From NCBI RefSeq assembly GCF_032854445.1, contig NW_027017953.1, forward strand, positions 1,336,444 to 1,400,443: a stretch of DNA of 64,000 nt, given 5' to 3'. Origin of the DNA: Liolophura sinensis (taxonomy: Eukaryota > Mollusca > Polyplacophora > Chitonida > Chitonidae). Shown here piece by piece: positions 14,801 through 29,800 of the stretch. A program made the position numbers and the translations under genes. Numbering within the stretch: position 1 is the stretch's first letter; each line of letters opens with the position of its first letter. The notes beneath the pieces were generated by a model. The model was not told where the DNA came from. It did not search any database and saw nothing but the letters and a program-made list of their open reading frames with translations.

Positions 14801-17800
14801 CTTCCGTGCATTATTGAAAAGTGTCAGCTGCTTCTCTCTTACAAGTGACTAGCTTAATTTATTATTTATACATTATTTATTAGATATTTCTTTGTGAATT
14901 GGTGCTAAAAGTTGTTCTGGAAATGGCTCTGGTGATTATCGACTTGGAAGTCCGTTTTACGGTACACGTGTGGTCTACAGTTATCGGAGCTGACGCTCAA
15001 ATGTACGTTTAGGAAAACACTTTTAGCCCATACGATAAGTAAGATTGGTTCGACACCCAATCCATGTAACCTTATATACGCTGCAGGTTAGGGCAAGGCG
15101 GTATTGTCACGTTTATTCATTTTTTGTTTTCCTCAGTATTCAGAATTTAAAATCGGAATGGAATAACAACGAGGGCTACTCTGTAGAGTTACTCCGATAC
15201 AAGCCATCTGATACAAAGTTTTGTTTCAGATGAAAACTATGTTCGTTTGCGGACATACAAATAACGTCACAGACACTACGGCGCCGTGGTTGAACTAGTG
15301 TGTTTGCCATTTCATTCTCGTTTATTTCGTTGGATAAAGAGGTATATGATAAATATATCACCAAGACTGTGCGTGTTCCAAGAAGTGCTATCGACTTCTG
15401 ATACAACCGGCCAACCACAGACAACCACAGATCACGCACTGTCATAATAATCTCTATGTTTCGGTTTTGTTCTATGTAAAATTATTTCACGAACTGTTTG
15501 AACCTAAACTAGGCCGGATCTGATTCTGCTGATTCACTATACATCCCCTCAAATTCATCAAATTAAAATGTTCCATATTAACTAACATCAAACTTTAACT
15601 TTAACGGTAAGCTAAAATTTTAAAATTTAAAGTTGTTTTGAGTGGAGTCTTCTATCCTTTACATTGTCATAAAATAAACCACTAGAAGATTCATCAGTTT
15701 ATACAGCCTCATCCCCTCCAGCTTACATCGTATTCGGCGCTGAATCCATCAGAGGTTTTTTTCCTGTGATAATATTCCCAAAACTCGTCCGCAGACACGA
15801 CAGTCGTGAATGGATTCTCACAGGGCAGAGCGTCATCTGCTTCATTCATCTGAACTGGTACATTATCTACGCCGAGCCCTGGCAATGAAAAGGTCAAGGG
15901 TCAAGTTCAGCAACAATACGCAACAACCTTTGAACACACGAACAATACATTTTGTCAACAATCTATGTATTTCCAGCACACCATGATAAGTACTTCGTGT
16001 ACCTGCCTTTAAAATATTTCCATAAAAGTAACATGTGACTCTGGTGAACATTAATTTGGCTTATCCAGTTGATTGAGATTAAGATTGAATCTTACTGACC
16101 ATGAACAAATACGCCACGAAAACTTCTTTATTGTAAGCTGCATTATAAATATTTAAAAAATATACTTCTGTTTCCTAGTGTATCAACATGCGCAAACTGG
16201 TCTTCCGGTCTTCCCACAGGGTTCCTGGAAAAGCTAATCTTCCGGTCATTGCTGGCAGACGAGCTGCGCCTCCTTTTAGGAAAATCAAAAATAACATGCT
16301 GTGTACAAGAAATAAACAAACACAGGAAAGGGTCATCACACATTAGCCGACCAAGGGCTTTCATGTGTCGTCAGACGTAGAGCTGTCTTCTTCGGATTCT
16401 TGTGAGACATATATCTATGACCGCTTAGCTTGTTCTTAAACGGGGTTGGATGCCTGTGTATTGATATTTCTGTATTTAATTCATGAAATTACTACTTGTT
16501 TATCTCCTCTGTCAGTTGGTCCCTTAGATTAGCCTACTAACGTATTACCAAAGCTGTGTAGTCTGTAAAAAGCTGTGTAAAGAAACAAAGGAATCCGAAC
16601 ATACCCCAAAGGAAACCGGAAAGAGGTCGGGGAAACCGGAAAGAGGTCCGGGAAAACCGGGCAATAGTTTTAGTGAATGTGCAAAAACCTCTACCGTGGC
16701 AAATGTACTAAATAACTACCTGTACATGATGACGAAAACAACAACAGCTACTAGGAAAAGGGCCCCGACAATGCCTCCTGCTATTTTGCCCGTCGATGAG
16801 TCTTGGCTGACCGTGATTTCCATAGCTGTAACTGTAATATATTCAACATATAATTAACGCTTGAGTTCAGTCAAATTACATTTGAAATTTATTTCATTTT
16901 TTTTTACAGTGGTAAACGTATTAGATAGGGTGTAGATAGGTTCTGGCCGCTATACTTAGTAATAATTGTGGTTTCTTGCTTTAGTCCATCTGTCATAATA
17001 AAGTGTGTCAGGTAAAGTCCCCAGTGGGGTGGTTTTGTAAATATGACCGCCTTCCCGATCCATCTCATAACACTAAATCTTCTTCAATGAGTAGTAAAGT
17101 ACTATTCAAATAAATGATCAATTGATTATGGGATGGGGTGGTGGTGGGGTGGGCGTTGGGTGTTGGAGGCGGCCAGTTGAAAAGTCCTCAGATAGTTTCA
17201 AATGTTGCGGAGAAATTCCGTAATTCCCGCTAAGACATTACAAATCAATTTTTGTTCGCAATGCCGAGTGACCGCTTGTCTTCCTCAGATTCAGCATCAT
17301 TAATTAAACTCTGTAAAAAGTTCAAAGTCTTGAATGACAGCCTCTTCACGTAATGGTGGGTAATGGTCCATAGTCTAACTCTTTGATCGCATTTATCTCG
17401 CTTGTACTATGTCTATAGTTTGTAAAGAGTATCCCTTCCCACAAATGAGCACTTTGTCACAAGATTACATTAGCCTATTGTCCGTTGTTGTATGTTCGAC
17501 AGATGAAGACGGATATAAGGTGAATATGTAATTATGTATACCTGTCTGATATCGCTGTCTGGTGTGTTACCTGTCTGACATCGCTGTACGGTGTTATGTG
17601 TGTTACCTTTCTGACATCACTGTCCAGTGTTTAATGTGTTACCTGTCTCACATCGCTGTCCTGTGTTATCTGTGTTATCTGTCTGACATCGCTGTCTAGT
17701 GTTACCCGTGTTACCTATCTGATATCGTTGTCCCGGGTTACATGTGTTACCTGTCTGACATCGCTGTCCAGCGTTATATGTGTTACCTGTTTGACTTCAC

Positions 17801-20800
17801 CGTCCCGTCTTACATGTGTCACTTGTTTGCCATCGCTGTCCCGCGTTACATGTGTTACCTGTCTGACATCGCTGTCCCGTGTTACATGTGTTACCTGTCT
17901 GACATCGCTGTCCCGCGTTACATGTGTTACCTGTCTGACATCGCTGTCCCGCGTTATATGTGTTACCTGTTTGACTTCACCGTCCCGTCTTACATGTGTC
18001 ACTTGTTTGCCATCGCTGTCCCGCGTTACATGTGTTACCTGTCTGACATCGATGTCCCGCGTTACATGTGTTACCTGTCTGACATCGCTGTCCCGCGTTA
18101 CATGTGTTACCTGTCTGACATCGCTGTCCAGCGTTATATGTGTTACCTGTTTGACTTCACCGTCCCGCCTTACATGTGTCACTTGTTTGCCATCGCTGTC
18201 CCGCGTTACATGTGTTACCTGTCTGACATCGCTGTCCCGTGTTACATGTGTTACCTGCCTGACATCGCTGTCCCGCGTTACATATGTTACCTGTCTGACA
18301 TCGCTGTCCCGCGTTACATGTGTTACCTGTCTGCTATCACTGTCCCGCGTTATATGTGTTACCTGTTTGACTTCACCGTCCCGTCTTACATGTGGCACTT
18401 GTTTGCCATCGCTGTCCCGCGTTACATGTGTTACCTGTCTGACATCGCTGTCCCGCGTTACATGTGTTACCTGTCTGACATCGCTGTCCCGCGTTACATG
18501 TGTTACCTGTCTGACCTCACTGTCCCGTCTTACATGTGTCACTTGTTTGCCATCGCTGTCCCGCGTTACATGTGTTACCTGTCTGACATCGTTGTCCCGT
18601 GTTACATGTGTTACCTGTACCACAATGCGGCTGAATTCGTAAGTCTTTATGCTCCACATGGAAATGATCTGTATATTACTTCTATATATATTTCAACAGT
18701 ATTCCACTAACTGATAGTGGAGACAACCGTAGTGCCCCAAATAATCCACCTCTCTTCGCCAGGTACCTGACACATCTCCTGATGAAAAGCCGCAGCTGAT
18801 ACAACAACGCAGAATTGAAGTTTGCGACTTTAGCGTTTACAGGTCGACCGGTTGCGGGGGGACCAAGAGTTTCACCCATACATGGATATAATCCTGGCCT
18901 ACCTGTTGCATTACAAAGTAAAGAAATCCGAAAGCCTCTTTACTCTTTAAAACGCACATGTAGAAATCAAATATTACAGGATTACTTTAAATGTAGAGTT
19001 TGTGTCGAATATCCGTTACGGAAGTAACATATGCTGATTCTTTGTCATACAATGTATGTGCAAACTCTTCAGTATTTAGTTACAATCTGTTATCCATACT
19101 CCAGTATTCGTGACAAAGAAACAGATGACATTCCCAGTATCCCCGTAAAGTCTAAAGTCGCAAGCTTGCTAATACTCACGTGTACGACACGTTGTGTCTG
19201 TGTTTCCGTAACCAGCTGAACACCGAGGATTCCCCTCAGTAACGGGACATTCCCCTGACGTCTTGTCACACACAGTCCCGTTGTAGCAGCCACCACATGG
19301 CGTTTTGCAGTCCGGGCCCCACATTCCGTCGGTACATGCTGAAATGACAAACAGACTGTGAAGCAAGTCTGATCCTAGCTCAGATGTTTGTTTCAGTTAA
19401 GATACCAAAAAGCTTATTTTTCTCTGAATCTCGTCATATGTACTTATGTTGTTTTTTTTTTTACGTCACCAGTATCGTTTTTGAACATCATCAGTAACGT
19501 TTTGGAAAGGTCAGCCGTAAGGTTTTTGAATATCATGAGTAGGCCCTATCGTTTTTGAAGGTCATCAGTAAGGTATTTAGTAAATCACGTTGTCTTTTGG
19601 TCTATTTATGTCTTGAATTTTCGGGAAAAATATTGACGAATTGAATTAAATGCTGTAGTGCCGCTCTACTACATCGCTCTACTTACGTGTACGGCACGTT
19701 GTGTCTGTGTACCCGTAACCAGCTGAACACCGGGAATTCCCCTCAATAACGGGACATACCCCTGACGTCTTGTCACACACAGTCCCGTTGTAACAGCCAC
19801 CACATGGCGTTTTGCAGTCCGGGCCCCACATTCCGTCGGTACATGCTGAAATGGCAAACAGACTGTGAAGCAAGTCTGATCCTAGCTCAGATGTTTGTTT
19901 CAGTTAAGATGCCAAAAAGCTTATTTTTCTCTGAATCTCGTCATATGTACTTACGATTTTTTTACGTCACCAGTATCGTTTTTGAACATCATCAGTAACG
20001 TTTTGGAAAGGTCAGCCGTAAGGTTTTTGAATATCATGAGTAGGCCCTATCGTTTTTGAAGGCCATCAGTAAGGTATTTAGTAAATCACGTTGTCTTTTG
20101 GTCTATTTATGTCCTGAATTTTCGGGAAAAATATTGACGAATTGAATTAAATGCTGTAGTGCCGCTCTACTACATCGCTCTACTTACGTGTACGGCACGT
20201 TGTGTCTGTGTACCCGTAACCAGCTGAACACCGGGGATTCCCCTCAATAACGGGACATACCCCTGACGTCTTGTCACACACAGTCCCGTTGTTACAGTTA
20301 CCACATGGCGTTTTGCAGTCCGCGCCCCACATTCCGTCGGTACATGCTGAAACATTGCAAACGGTATTCAAGAGACGCTGATAAAAACGGGTTATTGCAC
20401 AAGATCTTTTATGATACAACGAAATCGGATAATAATGAGAAGAACGAGGATAATAATGAGAAGAGCGAGGATAATAATGAGAAGAACATGTGCAAATGTG
20501 TGTGTGTGTTATTATCATACCACGATAGGCCTGTGGTATTTGTTCTACACGCTGTTCTACGATTGGTGTAACTTAGACATGCGATGTGGTTAGTGACAGC
20601 AGATCCCCTAATCTGCTAAAGCACGCTAGTCATATAAGAATTTGCCAACAATAATGTTTCAGCTGAATGGTTTTAAGGTTTTAACCTAATTCGATCATTA
20701 GAGAAACTAGTCTGCCCAGAAGGAAGTCAGTATCATTGTATCCCTATTAAGTTGATAACTGGCATCCTTGATTGTACCAACAGGTGAACGTTACTGAACA

Positions 20801-23800
20801 CAAACTCCCAAGCTCAGACGCAGTGACTTACGTTGAACACAGAGTGAGCCTTTATACCCAGCTGCACAGCGGGGGTTTCCAGCCGACAAAGTACACTCCC
20901 CTGATGTCCTATCACACACAGTATCGTTATAACACTGGCCGCAGCTGGATGCACAGTTAGTACCCCATTTACCCGCTAGGCACTCTGGAAATAATGAGAG
21001 AACATTAGCCACTCCCAAAATTTAATACACTCACCTAGATATAAACAGATATTGTAAACCATCTGGTCTTGTTGAATGTGACGTTACTTTTTTTTGTGTG
21101 TTTTTATTTTCGATGTTATAACAATTGCTGGGTTTGTAGGTAACCCAAGTCACATCAGCTGGTCAATAAACCTTACTACAACGTGCAGCCGTAATTTGCT
21201 TTCACTCAGTTGTTTTCTTGACATCTGAAATTGAAGTCGAAACACTGGTAACAACAGTACAAATTGAGGTAACAATAGTACAGGTGAGGTAACAATTGTA
21301 CAAGTGAGGTAACAATAATACAGATGAGGGAACAATAAAACAGATGAGGTAACAATTGTACAAGCGAGTTTACAATAGTACAGATGAGGTAACAATAGTA
21401 TAGATGAGGTAACAATAGTACAGATGAGGTAACAACTGTACAGGTGAGGTAACACTAGTACAGGAGAGGTAACAATAGTACAAATGAGGTAACAACTGTA
21501 CAAGTAAGGTAACAATAGTACAGGTGAGGTAACAATACTACAGGGGAGGCATCAATACTACAGCTGAGGCAACAATATAACAAGTAAGGTAACAATAGTA
21601 CAGGTGAGGTAACAATAGTAAATATGGGGTAACAATAGTATAGGTGAGGTAGCAATAACACAGGTGAGGTAACAACAGTACAGGTGAGGTAGCAATAGAA
21701 CAGGTAACAATAGTCCAGATGAGGTAACAATAGTACAGATAAGGTAACAATAGTACAGGTAAGGTAACAATAGTCCAGATGAGGTACCAATAGTACAGAG
21801 AAGGTAACAATAGTACAGGTGGAGTAAGAATGGTACAGGTGGGGTAAGAATAGTGTAGCTAACAACAGAACAGATAACAATAGTACATTTATTTATTTCA
21901 TTGGTGTTTTACGCCTTACTCAAGAATATTTCACTCATACGACGGCGGCAAGCATTATGGTGGGAGGAAACGAAAACATACGACCGGAGATGAAGCCAGC
22001 ATGAGCGATCGCATTGGTGAGAGACTCCTGGGTCAAACAACAGTACAGATGAGGTAACAATAGTAAAGGCGAGGTAACAATAGTACAGATGGGGTAAGAA
22101 TAGTGTACACATTACAAGGAGTAAAACAGGAACATAATAATGCATATTTCACTTCGAATGTTAGGTTCAAAAGGTAAGCATGTAGGGTTCACCCCCTTTT
22201 CACCATTCTTCCACCCCCCGCTCCTTAGTGGGCCTGTTGAACATCATATGAAGTACACTGTACGTAAATGGGGCTGCTGTGGTCAATATTGGAATCTAGA
22301 AACTATAAGACTCGTCCATGTTGAGTTTGATTGTTGCATAAAGAAGAGTAATATGTTATTTGATTGTCCCGAACACTGTACGAATCGATTGACGCTCCTA
22401 AAATTTATCAGTAATGTAAGCAGTAGACCTACTGAGCAAAACTTACCTGTGTCACATTTGATCCCCGTGTATCCCGGTATGCATCTTGGTAAGTTAAATC
22501 TGTTCGGACAGTGCCCGGATGTTGTGTCACAAAACGTCTTCCCCTGAGCACAGAACCCACAGCTCCTCCCACAGTCAGGTCCGTAGGTACCTCTTGTACA
22601 ACCTAGGAGTTTAAAACGACAATATATATGTATTTACGTCTAAGCGCATGGTTTTAATTTGGCTTCTCTTTTCGTCGTACTTAAAGTTGGTTTAGTAAAT
22701 AAAAATACTGATGGCTGAGAGAAACTGGTAACGTCTTGACGAAAAAAAATAGTTGTTTATAGGAAGAAATTTACAATTAGCCAGAGCTGGGTTTGAACGC
22801 TTGGCGCGATTGCACCAAGACATGCAGAACTATGCCAGGTTTCATGAACCATACTAAGTTAAGTAAATGGCTTAAGTGACATCTATCTGATCACACACGT
22901 GAGAGAAAAAAAAATGTATAAGGGAAAATAGTCTTCATAATATTTTAAGGTATAGATCCTGATCTTCTAACACTTTTTCTAGAATAGTTCTTACGGTTTA
23001 AACAGGGAAGTCCCGTGTATCCGGCCTGGCATCGCAGTCCGTCAGTTACTGGACACTCTCCTGTTAATTTATCACAGCCTCTGTTGTTGTAACACTTTCC
23101 ACACAGGGACAGACAATGTTCACCATGACGACCTAGGACACATCCTGCAAACAAACAATGTTCACCATGACGACCTAGGACACATCCTGCAAACAAACAA
23201 TGTTCACCATGACGATTTAAGACACATCCTGCAAACAAACAATGTTCACCATAACGATCTAGGACACACCCTATAAACAAACAGTGTTCACCATAACGAC
23301 CTAGGACACATCTTGCAAACAAACAATGTCACCATGACAACCTAGGACACATCCTGCAAACAGACAGTGTTCACCATAACGATCTAGGACACATCCTGCA
23401 AACAGATAGTGTTCACCATAACGAGCTAGGACACATCCTGCAAACAAACAATATTCCCCATAAAGACCTAGGACACATCCAGCAAACAAACAGTGTTCAC
23501 TATAACGATCTAGGACACATCCTGCAAACAATGTTCACCATAACGATCTAGGACACACCCTGTAAACAAACAGTGTTCACCATAACAACCTAGGACACAT
23601 CCTGTAAACAGATAGTGTTCACCATAACGAGCTAGGACACATCTTGCAAACAAACAATGTTCACCATAACGAGTTAGGACACATCCTGCAAACCCACAGT
23701 GTTCACCATGACGACCTAGGACATATCCTGCAAACAGACAGTGTTCACCATAACGATCTAGGACACACCCTATAAACAAACAGTGTTCACCATAACGACC

Positions 23801-26800
23801 TAGGACACATCTTGCAAACAAACAATGTCACCATGACGACCTAGGACACATCCTGCAAACAGACAGTGTTCACCATAACGATCTAGGACACATCCTGCAA
23901 ACAGATAGTGTTCACCATAACGAGCTAGGACACATCCTGCAAACAAACAATATTCCCCATAAAGACCTAGGACACATCCAGCAAACAAACAGTGTTCACT
24001 ATAACGATCTAGGACACATCCTGCAAACAATGTTCACCATAACGATCTAGGACACACCCTGTAAACAAACAGTGTTCACCATAACAACCTAGGACACATC
24101 CTGTAAACAGATAGTGTTCACCATAACGAGCTAGGACACATCTTGCAAACAAACAATGTTCACCATAACGAGTTAGGACACATCCTGCAAACAGACAGTG
24201 TTCACCATGACGACCTAGGACATATCCTGCAAACAGACAGTGTTCACCATAACGATCTAGGACACATCCTGCAAACAGACAGTGTTCATTATAACGAGCT
24301 AGGACACATCTTGCAAACAAACAATGTTCACCATGACGAGCTAGGACACATCCTGCAAACAAACAGTGTTCACCATAACGATCTAGGACACATCCTGCAA
24401 ACAGATAGTGTTCACCATAACGAGCTAGGACACATCCTGCAAACAAACAATGTTCACCATGACGACCTAGGACACATCTTGCAAACAAACAATGTTCACC
24501 ATAACGAGCTAGGACACATCTTGCAAACAGACAGTGTTCACCATAACGACCTGGGACACATCCTGCAAACAAACAATGTTCACCATAACGAGCTAGGACA
24601 CATCCTGCAAACAAACAATGTTCACGATAAAGAGTTAGGACACATCCTGCAAACAGACAGTGTTCACCATAACGAGCTAGGACACATCTTGCAAGCAAAC
24701 AATTTCACCATAACGAGCTAGGACACATCTTGCAAACAGACAGTGTTCACCATAACGACCTGGGACACATCCTGCAAACAAACAATGTTCACCGTAACGA
24801 GTTAGGATACATCCTACAAACAAACAATGTTCACCATGACGACCTAGGACACATCCTGCAAACAGACAGTGTTCACCATGACGACCTAGGACACATCCTG
24901 CAAACAGACAGTGTTCACCATGACGACCTAGGACACATCTTGCAAACAGACAGTGTTCACCATGACGACCTAGGACACATCCTGCAAACAGACAGTGTTC
25001 ACCATGACGACCTAGGACACATCCAGCAAACGAACAATGTTCACCATAACGAGCTGGGACACATCTTGCAAAACAGACAGTGTTCACCATAACGATCTAG
25101 AACAAATCCTGCAAACAGATAGTGTTCACCATAACGAGCTAGGACACATCCTGCAAACAGATAGTGTTCACCATAACGATCTAGGACACATCCTGCAAAC
25201 AGATAGTGTTCACCATAACGAGCTAGGACACATCTTGCAAACAAACAATGTTCACAATGACGACCTAGGACACATCCTGCAACCAAACAATGTTCACCAT
25301 AACGAGCTAGGGCACATCTTCCAAACAGACAGTGTTCACCATAACGACCTGGGACACATCCTGCGAACAAACAATGTTCACCATAACGACCTAAGACACA
25401 TCCTGCAAACAAACAATGTTCACGTTAAAGAGTTAAGACACATCCTGCAAACAGACAGTGTTCACCATAACGAGCTAGGGCACATCTTCCAAACAGACAA
25501 TGTTCACCATAACGACCTGGGACACATCCAGCTAACAAACAATGTTCACCATAACGAGTTAGGACACATCCTGCAAACAAACAATGTTCACCATGACGAG
25601 CTAGGACACATCCTGCAAACAGACAGTGTTCACCATGACGACCTATGACATATCCTGCAAACAGACAGTGTTCACCATGACGACCTAGGACACATCTTGC
25701 AAACAGACAGTGTTCACCATGACGACGTAGGACACATCCAGCAAACGAACAATGTTCACCATAACGAGCTAGGACACATCCCGCAAACAGACAGTGTTTA
25801 CCATAACGAGCTAAGACACATCCTGCAAACAAACAATGTTCACCATAACGACCTGGGACACATCCTGCAAACAGACAGTGTTCACCATGACGAGCTAGGA
25901 CACATCCAGCAAACAGACAATGTTCACCATAACGAGTTAGGACACATCCTGCAAACAAACAGTGTTCACCATTAAGACCTAGGACACATCTGCAAACAAA
26001 CAATGTTCACCATAACGACCTAGGACACATCTTGCAAACAAACAATGTTCACCATAACGATCTAGGACACATCCTGCAAACAAACAATGTTTCACCATGA
26101 CGACCTAGGACGTATCCTGAAAACAAGCAATGTTCACCATACCGAGCTAGGACACATCCTGCAAACAGACAGTGTTCACCATGACGACCTAGGACATATC
26201 CTGCAAACAGACAGTGTTCACCATAACGATCTAGGACACATCCTGCAAACAGATAGTGTTCACCATAACGAGCTAGGACACATCTTGCAAACAAACAATG
26301 TTCACAATGACGACCTAGGACATATCCTGCAAACAAACAGTGTTCACCATGACGACCTAGGACACATCTTGCAAACAGACAGTGTTCACCATGACGACCT
26401 AGGACACATCCTGCAAACAGATAGTGTTCACCATGACGACCTAGGACACATCCTGCAAACAGACAGTGTTCACCATGACGACCTAGGACACATCCAGCAA
26501 ACGAACAATGTTCACCATAACGAGCTAGGACACATCCCGCAAACAGACAGTGTTTACCATAACGAGCTAAGACACATCCTGCAAACAAACAATTTCACCA
26601 TAACGACCTGGGACACATCCTGCAAACAGACAGTGTTCACCATGACGAGCTGGGACACATCTTGCAAACAGACAATGTTCACCATAACGAGTTAGGACAC
26701 ATCCCGCAAACAAACAGTGTTCACCATGAAGACCTAGGACACATCCTGCAAACAAACAATGTTCACCATAACGACCTAAGACACATCCTGCAAACAAACA

Positions 26801-29800
26801 ATGTTCACCATAACGACCTAGGACACATCCTGCAAACAAACAATGTTCACCATGACGACCTGGGACGCATCCTGCAAACAAGCAATGTTCACCATAACGA
26901 GCTAGGACACATCCTGCAAACAGACAATGTTCACCATAACGAGCTAGGACACATCCTACAAACAAACAATGTTCACCATAACGAGCTAGGACACATCTTG
27001 CAAACAAACAATGTTTGTAATCATGTTTTATTCAGTTTTGTGGTTATGGACCTGTGGATACAGGCATAAAAGGAATCCACGAAATTCCCTGTCCACGACC
27101 GGCTCTCAGAAATAGTGGGAAAACTTTTTTTATACGCAAAGGCTGCCCTGTATATTCTACTCTATGATTTGTTCAAGTCAATCGCGAGACTATCAGAATT
27201 TGCTGTTTGTTTTTCACTTTGCTACAGTACAAGGCATGAGGGCAGCAACACAGCATTGACAAATGAAGAGAACAGATGAGTACAACAAATCAGCCCTTTG
27301 AAGCTGTCAATACCTACGTTTATAGGCTCTGAAGAGTAACATTGACCTTAGACATCGACACTCACCTCTGACTTCAGGTCAGTAAATCTCCGTATCAACT
27401 TTATCATAGGCCATAACTGCACATTCTTACACAAACAAAATGCGTGCACTGCTACTGACATAACGACCTCTCGTAGTTGACCTACATTTAAAGTGTGTGC
27501 TTGCGGGGGTATAAATCTAACAACGTCTTACATTTAAAGGGTGTGCCTGCGGGGGTATGAATCCAAAAACGTCTTACATTTAAAGTGTGTGCCTGCAGGG
27601 GTATGGATCCACCAACGTCTTACATTTAAAGTGTGTGCCTGCGGGGGTATGGATCCACCAACGTCTTACATTTAAAGTGTGTGCCTGCGGGTGTATGGAT
27701 CCACCAACGTCTTACATTTAAAGTGTGTGCCTCCAGGGGTATGAATCCACCAACATCTTACATTTAAAGTGTGTGCCTGCGGGTGTATGGATCCACCAAC
27801 GTCTTACATTTAAAGTGTGTGCCTGCGGGTGTATGGATCCACCAACGTGTTACATTTAAAGTGTGTGCCTGCGGGGGTGTGGATCCACCAACGTGTTACA
27901 TTTAAAGTGTGTGCCTGCGGGGGTATAAATCTAACAACGTCTTACATTTAAAGGGTGTGCCTGCAGGGGTATGAATCCAAAAACGTCTTACATTTAAAGT
28001 GTGTGCCTCCAGGGGTATGGATCCACCAACATCTTACATTTAAAGTGTGTGCCTGCGGGGGTATGGATCCACCAACATCTTACATTTAAAGTGTGTGCCT
28101 GCAGGGGTATGGATCCACCAACGTCTTACATTTAAAGTGTGTGCCTGCGGGGGTGTGGATCCACCAACGTGTTACATTTAAAGTGTGTGCCTGCGGGTGT
28201 ATGGATCCACCAACGTCTTACATTTAAAGTGTGTGCCTGCGGGGTGTGGATCCACCAACGTGTTACATTTAAAGTGTGTGCTTGCGGGGGTATAAATCTA
28301 ACAACGTCTTACATTTAAAGTGTGTGCCTGCGGGGGTATGGCCCCACCAACGTGTTACATTTAAAGTGTGGTCTTGTTGGTGTATTAATCCACCAACGTC
28401 TTACATTTAAAGTGGGTGCCTGCAGGAGTATGGATCCACCAACGTGTTACATTTAAAGTGTGTGCTTGCGGGGGTATAAATCTAACAACGTCTTACATTT
28501 AAAGTGTGTGCCTGCGGGGGTATGGATCCACCAACGTCTTACATTTAAAGTGTGGTCTTGTTGGTGTATTAATCCACCAACGTCTTACATTTAAAGTGGG
28601 TGCCTGCAGGAGTATGGATCCACCAACGTGTTACATTTAAAGTGTGTGCTTGCGGGGGTATAAATCTAACAACGTCTTACATTTAAAGTGTGTGCTTGCG
28701 GGGGTATAAATCTAACAACGTCTTACATTGAAAGTGTGTGCCTGCAGGGGTATGGATCCACCAACGTCTTACATTTAAAGTGGGTGCCTGCAGGAGTATG
28801 GATCCACCAACGTCTTACATTTAAAGTGTGGTCTTGTTGGTGTATTAATCCACCAACGTCTTACATTTAAAGTGGGTGCCTGCGGGGGTATGGATCCACC
28901 AACGTCTTACATTTAAAGTGGGTGCCTGCAGGAGTATGGATCCACCAACGTGTTACATTTAAAGTGGGTGCCTGCGGGAGTATGGATCCACCAACGTCTT
29001 ACATTTAAAGTGGGTGCCTGCGGGGGTATGGATCCACCAACGTCTTACATTTAAAGTGTGGTCTTGTTGGTGTATTAATCCACCAACGTCTTACATTTAA
29101 AGTGGGTGCCTGCAGGAGTATGGATCCACCAACGTGTTACATTTAAAGTGTGGTCTTGTTGGTGTATTAATCCACCAACGTCTTACATTTAAAGTGGGTG
29201 CCTGCGGGGGTATGGATCCACCAACGTCTTACATTTAAAGTGGGTGCCTGCGGGAGTATGGATCCACCAACGTCTTACATTTAAAGTGTGGGCTTGTGGG
29301 GGTATGGCCCCACCAACGTTTATATGTGTGCGTCCCAGGCCTGTGTCATTCAAATGGACTGCACAGGAATATGCCAGTTTATCCTACCTTCACATCTTGT
29401 CCCCATGGGGTCACACCTCCGGCATGATGTAGTCGTCACACATCTCCTGTTACACTTCTCACCGTACCAGCCACCTGTGCACCCTAGGGTAATCAGAGAA
29501 AGAAATAATGCAGACGTAATGTATTCTTAGAAAAGAAAAATATATATTATTGATAATAAATAATAACGGTGTTATTGTATTTATTTTTTTATTTGAAACT
29601 AGAGTATTTTCACTGATGCAATGGTGGTCAGTTTTATGGGTGGAGGAAACCGGAGTGATTGGGGTAAAACAACCCAAGCTGTGGTTAGTTACACTGAGTA
29701 ACTTTCCTTCGTGTTACGTTACCCTCACACGCCATACTTGTCGACCCCAACGACCGGAGACTCTGCTGATCGGGTTTGAATCCACACGTGCCCTGTGGTC

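Follow-up and report, generated by a model that had tools for sequence, protein, structure and literature searches.

Does an intron-exon boundary repeated in about 93 tandem copies serve the gene that carries it, and which of its many acceptors would be spliced? We addressed this question in a stretch of 64,000 nucleotides of the chiton Liolophura sinensis (contig NW_027017953.1, positions 1,336,444 to 1,400,443; hereafter the window). The window sits on contig C14 (1.46 Mb) of one haploid assembly (PMC11068029), whose species the authors have renamed from L. japonica to L. sinensis (PMC12441733). On the minus strand of the window, intron 6 of an EGF-like gene contains a minisatellite (23109-27015) whose 42-bp unit carries the acceptor junction of exon 7. 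We consider it likely that this array is a neutral and recently expanding minisatellite that arose across a splice junction, like those known as mirages in amphioxus, and that splicing takes place at position 23144 by exon definition.

The two exons bordering the intron could be placed on the minus strand by their frame and splice signals. Exon 6 (29388-29483, 96 nt) has the acceptor ccctag and the donor GAAG/GTAGGA, and it joins exon 7 in frame as ...CEGCVLGRHGEHCL...; exon 7 (22995-23144, 150 nt) has its presumed true acceptor AG at 23146/23145 and the donor CC/GTAAGA. Together with a paralogue described below, these features indicate that the array straddles a real intron-exon boundary. Tandem Repeats Finder (TRF) placed the array at 23109-27015 with a period of 42, 93.3 copies, 88% matches and a score of 5598, and wrap-around segmentation divided it into 94 rows, of which the two at the ends are partial. 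The spacing is exactly 42 nt in 83 of 92 cases and otherwise 41 (five), 43 (two) or 38 nt (two). The 85 of 94 rows that aligned without gaps share on average 0.909 identity with the first 36 nt of exon 7, and 62 of these 85 ungapped units are distinct sequences. Since the units are near copies and not independent, conservation figures given for them are descriptive. When the array DNA was compared with the whole genome, all of the 39 matches listed fell at the array locus. A sequence-only reading of this stretch had proposed that the unit is a real 3' splice junction at which intron 6 ends and exon 7 begins, that it is present in about 93 copies and that its 42 nt correspond to 14 codons, and all of this is borne out. 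Its division of the unit into 10 nt of intron and 32 nt of exon is one valid choice among several equivalent ones, as the array ends on both sides in a 12-bp direct repeat.

The origin of the array can be approached through a tandem paralogue, L007 (C14:1320400-1321500), which has both exons and the same junction, separated by an intron of about 330 nt, and in which the array is absent. The 3' end of the L007 intron matches 23 of 28 nt at positions 27020-27047 (minus strand) of the window, just outside the array on its far (5') side. The matching stretch sits about 21 nt before the acceptor in L007 and 22-23 nt before the farthest array acceptor in the window. This match indicates that the original junction was pulled apart and the gap taken up by copies; the ancestral intron end now bounds the array on the far side and exon 7 on the near side, an arrangement that fits an in-place duplication of the junction itself. 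It also reverses the earlier suggestion that the last acceptor alone has a branch point, as the ancestral intron end adjoins the most distant copy. Both ends of the array carry the 12-bp direct repeat AACATTGT[T/C]TGT, which differs by one mismatch between the intron-side member at the start of the array (AACATTGTTTGT, 27004-27015, minus strand) and the exon-side member inside exon 7 (AACATTGTCTGT, 23109-23120, minus strand). We regard this repeat as the likely seed of the array: replication slippage or unequal exchange between its two members would probably have duplicated the intervening 42 bp. Seed repeats were also sought at three arrays elsewhere in the genome (L137, L138 and L109), and a clear one was seen at L137 (10/10 nt).

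Further rounds of duplication raised the array to 93 copies. They include a recent one of about 500 bp, as a 525-bp block recurs within the array at an offset of 499 bp with 99.4% identity, which argues for recent growth and corresponds to the concerted evolution described for mirages. The same block could have been mis-assembled, and HiFi depth was just 14x (PMC11068029, excerpt), so we weighed whether the copy number has been inflated or collapsed by the assembly. We find this very improbable: the mean HiFi read, at 8,347 bp, is longer than the 3.9-kb array (same source), most of the ungapped units are distinct from one another, and similar arrays are found on several chromosomes.

To what extent do the copies still look like splice sites? 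Of the 93 units, exon 7's own counted, 62 have the AG exactly at the junction, so that many but not all units keep the signal, as in mirages. In 20 units the AG lies one base later (AAG, which changes the frame) and in 11 the situation is otherwise; the claim that nearly every unit keeps the AG was therefore overstated. The matrix used to score acceptors was derived from 47 non-redundant ones of related exons, and relative to these the exon 7 acceptor ranks at the 36th percentile. Out of 82 AGs scored, exon 7's included, 59 reach at least the 10th percentile of these real acceptors; among 3375 other AGs on this strand of the window the share is 6.2%. Scores are low at the 20 shifted AAG sites (median -5.77); the farthest of them, next to the ancestral intron end, has -5.3. 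A TNAY motif lies at -18 to -44 in 81 of the 82 AGs tested, which speaks against a branch point limited to one acceptor, although the longer YTNAY is found in only 11 of the 82. Most units combine an AG with a T-rich tract and a weak motif resembling a branch point. Consensus donors of the form GTRAG, the form scored, number 0 in the 3.9 kb of the array, while this strand of the window has 2.3 per kb. The array can be read as a series of acceptors, most of them plausible, that lacks consensus donors. Because no unit has a GTRAG donor the units look acceptor-only, and they are unlikely to become cassette exons; nor does the duplicate supply the consensus donor from which an intron could be gained.

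We then asked which of these acceptors would be compatible with the reading frame. When exon 6 was joined to each of 83 AGs an open in-frame product resulted in four cases, namely at the normal site and at the three most exon-proximal copies (23145-23270, minus strand), whose acceptors have their first exon bases at 23186, 23228 and 23270 and would add 14, 28 and 42 amino acids. The open frame of the array extends to 23328, as the sequence-only reading had broadly noted, but only these three additional acceptors are in frame and free of stops. One could imagine that the acceptors of the array are partly used, yielding these longer isoforms together with still longer ones targeted by nonsense-mediated decay (NMD), so that copy number tunes protein output. 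The large share of well-scoring AGs and the three in-frame choices speak for this, as do human boundary repeats that alter splicing in some cases (PMC2812944, excerpt). Nevertheless we judge it unlikely. Stops follow from 79 of the 83 AGs, the shifted sites are poor acceptors, and neither the AG nor the frame is preferentially kept: the two AG columns are conserved at 0.891 and 0.783 against a mean of 0.923, and 8 of 42 adjacent column pairs are lower still. Moreover, amphioxus mirages are reported with regular, undisturbed splicing in the excerpts of PMC3087553 and PMC3902484.

The unit length of 14 codons and stop-free stretches of up to 231 codons could instead suggest that the array was or is expressed as a variable EGF stalk made of GCVLGRHGEHCLFA blocks, a possibility raised by the sequence-only reading that we find hardly credible. 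Conservation is highest at the third codon position (0.946, versus 0.896 and 0.926 at the other two), length changes of 1 and 4 bases disrupt the frame where units measure 38, 41 or 43 nt, the paralogue L007 has no such repeat, and few of the acceptors lead to an open product. The pattern of conservation fits neither a maintained coding repeat nor maintained acceptors.

A neutral junction-spanning minisatellite removed with its intron accounts best for these observations, and it is also, among the options offered by the earlier reading, the one that would fit best (a harmless satellite), even though the branch-point reason given for it is reversed by the anatomy of the array. In an intron of 6.2 kb the exon would be defined first, and sites closest to each other across the exon would be favoured, following the proximity rule published for long introns (PMC9225289, excerpt). 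Under this rule 23144 is the predicted acceptor because it belongs to the copy nearest the exon 7 donor. That copy would most likely be spliced, giving the 150-nt exon, while the remainder of the array would leave with the intron and evolve neutrally. A slip to one of the next three acceptors would be tolerated in frame, with 14, 28 or 42 residues added; leakage beyond them would lead to a frame shift or a stop, and the product would probably be degraded.

To place this array in its genomic context we surveyed exon ends elsewhere in the assembly. The sample was hand-picked, not random, and took in 80, 40 and 40 of the 137 EGF, 138 kinase and 76 helicase matches, respectively. The EGF loci are paralogues, some of them adjacent to each other; kinase loci were open, stop-free matches; and for helicases we took, in table order, the first 40 loci that lacked a stop and had an open frame of up to 170 aa. 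An end was considered covered when a local direct repeat of at least 30 nt and at least 75% identity extended 12 nt or more to each side of the end of the coding match, in a flank of about 500 bp, and flank positions at 150 and 300 nt served as intron controls. As a positive control, the strict rule detected the window's own array (L001). Covered ends numbered 4/160 in the EGF family (80 loci), 3/80 in kinases (40 loci) and 4/80 in helicases (40 loci), that is, 11 of 320 ends at 11 of 160 loci. This gives a first rough rate of junction arrays for hand-picked exon loci, paralogues included. Ends of kinase and helicase matches are those of domain matches, not proven exon ends, so junction arrays there may be missed. 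Control positions were covered in 13/320 (EGF), 13/160 (kinases) and 21/160 (helicases) cases, 47/640 in sum, and Markov-shuffled loci in 0/720 and 0/240. Exon ends are thus not enriched in arrays (11/320 versus 47/640 intron positions); Fisher tests gave p = 0.18 for the EGF and kinase sets and p = 0.02 for all three sets, values that ignore clustering and on which we do not lean. Arrays are common near the sampled exons and sometimes lie on junctions, with exon ends if anything less covered than introns. Junction arrays seem to be common in the chiton genome.

Judged by strand and side, nine of the 11 covered ends are donors and two are acceptors. At the 80 related EGF-exon loci the strict test, which did detect the array of the window, found no acceptor-side array. 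Donor arrays are seen in EGF paralogues too: L018, L025 and L033, which are EGF matches, form with L038 and L041 a set of C15 paralogues whose arrays probably go back to a single event, so that the eleven covered ends would represent about nine events. The arrays at L038 and L041 were found by TRF and by eye alone, and at L018 TRF found none at its default threshold and one with a looser setting. Genes outside the EGF family were named after their best PDB matches. The two acceptor arrays belong to a PASK-like gene (80 bp, 7.1 copies) and a PKN-like gene (37 bp, 8.8 copies). Donor arrays include one in a receptor tyrosine kinase gene (67 bp, 6.5 or 7.9 copies depending on the TRF setting), whose best PDB match carries the label EGFR, with FGFR1 and RET coming next, and others in genes resembling Dicer (122 bp, at least 4.8 copies), DDX41 (39 bp, at least 13.7) and what we take to be SMARCAD1, the PDB label being shortened (69 bp, at least 7.9). 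The last three figures are lower bounds, as these arrays reach or come near the edge of the examined stretch. Reading of the sequences confirmed that in these genes the unit itself carries the junction. Loci L146, L149, L168, L173, L169 and L138, in helicase and receptor tyrosine kinase genes, have arrays that span a donor. At the DDX41-like locus, L146, 12 GTRAG motifs were counted in 532 bp; the strict rule missed one more donor array, at L169; and L173, another helicase, had no match in the PDB search at the cut used.

These loci raise the question of whether the spliceosome makes use of such choices. It is conceivable, but doubtful, that splice-junction arrays are spread genome-wide over thousands of exon ends, with the spliceosome choosing among 2 to 93 near-identical sites and members being used in some genes, so that evolution could tune isoform choice, NMD and intron gain through array length. 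The proximity rule would select the exon-proximal site in the other array genes too; a conserved kinase or helicase fold would hardly tolerate additional copies. PASK-, PKN-, Dicer-, DDX41- and SMARCAD1-like genes, with a few to 93 near-identical splice sites beside conserved exons, are natural constructs in which exon definition and the proximity rule could be examined in vivo with no need for engineering.

Several observations weigh against a fully neutral array spliced at one site. A human minisatellite reportedly provides multiple splice donor sites, to go by the title of Turri et al. (1995); the gene concerned is 6-16 (IFI6). In the window, 18 of the 82 AGs, exon 7's own counted, equal or exceed the exon 7 acceptor in score, which makes competition between acceptors plausible. 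The coverage of exon ends is below that of introns and could reflect some selection against arrays. The match between the L007 intron end and the edge of the array is modestly significant when its position is ignored, with 4 of 500 shuffles reaching its score, and the absence of GTRAG amounts to little more than one observation, since the units are near copies. Human exon-intron boundary repeats are also reported to change splicing (PMC2812944, excerpt).

Intron 6 contains a second minisatellite, of 46 bp and 40 copies by TRF (27483-29319, minus strand), in which comparison by eye with the exon 6 and exon 7 junctions revealed no likeness. This array, on the donor side of the intron, has 30 GTAAG motifs and 23 motifs of the form CAG, 13-17 nt, GTAAG, and the units with the latter resemble tiny exons. 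The label EGF-like for the host gene is based on its cysteine pattern and its paralogues: a Pfam search with exons 6-7 gave zero matches, one with exons 5-8 gave DSL and EGF_laminin matches that were both below the cut-off, and the PDB search gave weak matches only, the best (E 0.011) being the angiopoietin-1 receptor. Elsewhere in the window, three similar EGF-like exons lie in tandem about 500-510 bp apart (19172-20572; pairwise identity 85%, 68% and 64%), a tandem exon duplication. At 17563-18618 there is a 36-bp array of 29 copies whose minus-strand unit has CAG/GTAACA and reads CQTGNTCNAGQR; no parent exon was identified for it. Tandem repeats with a period of at least 10 make up about 39% of the whole window, as compared with 9% in 90 exon-centred loci of the EGF family. 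As regards the assembly, contig C99 carries, among the matches listed, seven mitochondrial COX1 copies about 15.5 kb apart, which is a concatenated mitochondrial genome. Mollusc haemocyanin gave 8 matches in a row, and amphioxus was rejected as the host. A search for the GFP family returned none, a negative of little weight because its control genomes gave none either, and a search for the DM9 lectin gave one match.

How does the chiton array compare with known systems? Among the open-licence PMC articles listed we found no junction-spanning minisatellite in a mollusc and no junction array at 93 copies, which does not prove absence from print; the main text of a chiton genome paper (PMC12005716) mentions neither minisatellites nor tandem repeats. 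Intronic repeats are on record in molluscs. Simple repeats are mentioned for Conus introns (PMC3862624, excerpt), and intron 3 of an abalone TSSK1-like gene likewise has a large minisatellite of 27 bp, with 62 copies shown and variation among individuals, which the excerpt of PMC6905558 describes as intronic without stating that it spans a splice junction. In potato, a tandem duplication in an RdRp gene likewise spans an acceptor and the start of an exon; there it made a new intron (PMC4974935, excerpt), whereas the chiton units have no GTRAG donor. Internal tandem repeats in human segmental duplications are also minisatellite expansions over exon boundaries, with on average about 4 copies of 30 bp, and are reported to alter splicing and to give rise to new introns (PMC2812944, excerpt).

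The sequence-only reading knew of no described system in which a splice junction is amplified in this way, but such systems exist. According to its title as cited, Turri et al. (1995) describe in a human minisatellite what is likewise a tandem repeat of a splice site, there a donor and in the chiton an acceptor. The closest parallel is provided by the junction-spanning minisatellites named mirages in amphioxus, in the genes Adh3, globin (Gb6 and Gb9), TnC and PGBD5 (PMC3087553 and PMC3902484, excerpts). These too are minisatellite-like copies of an intron-exon boundary, on either side of the intron, many but not all of whose units keep the AG or GT, and the units are homogenised. They differ in scale, globin Gb6 having 6 and 3 copies of 150-160 bp as against 93 copies of 42 bp in the chiton, and in host, a cephalochordate and not a mollusc, which concerns the range of the reports and not a defining property. 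Under that name mirages are reported only from amphioxus in the literature found, as far as its excerpts go, and the present array extends them to a mollusc: it is a very large case of a kind already known from amphioxus.

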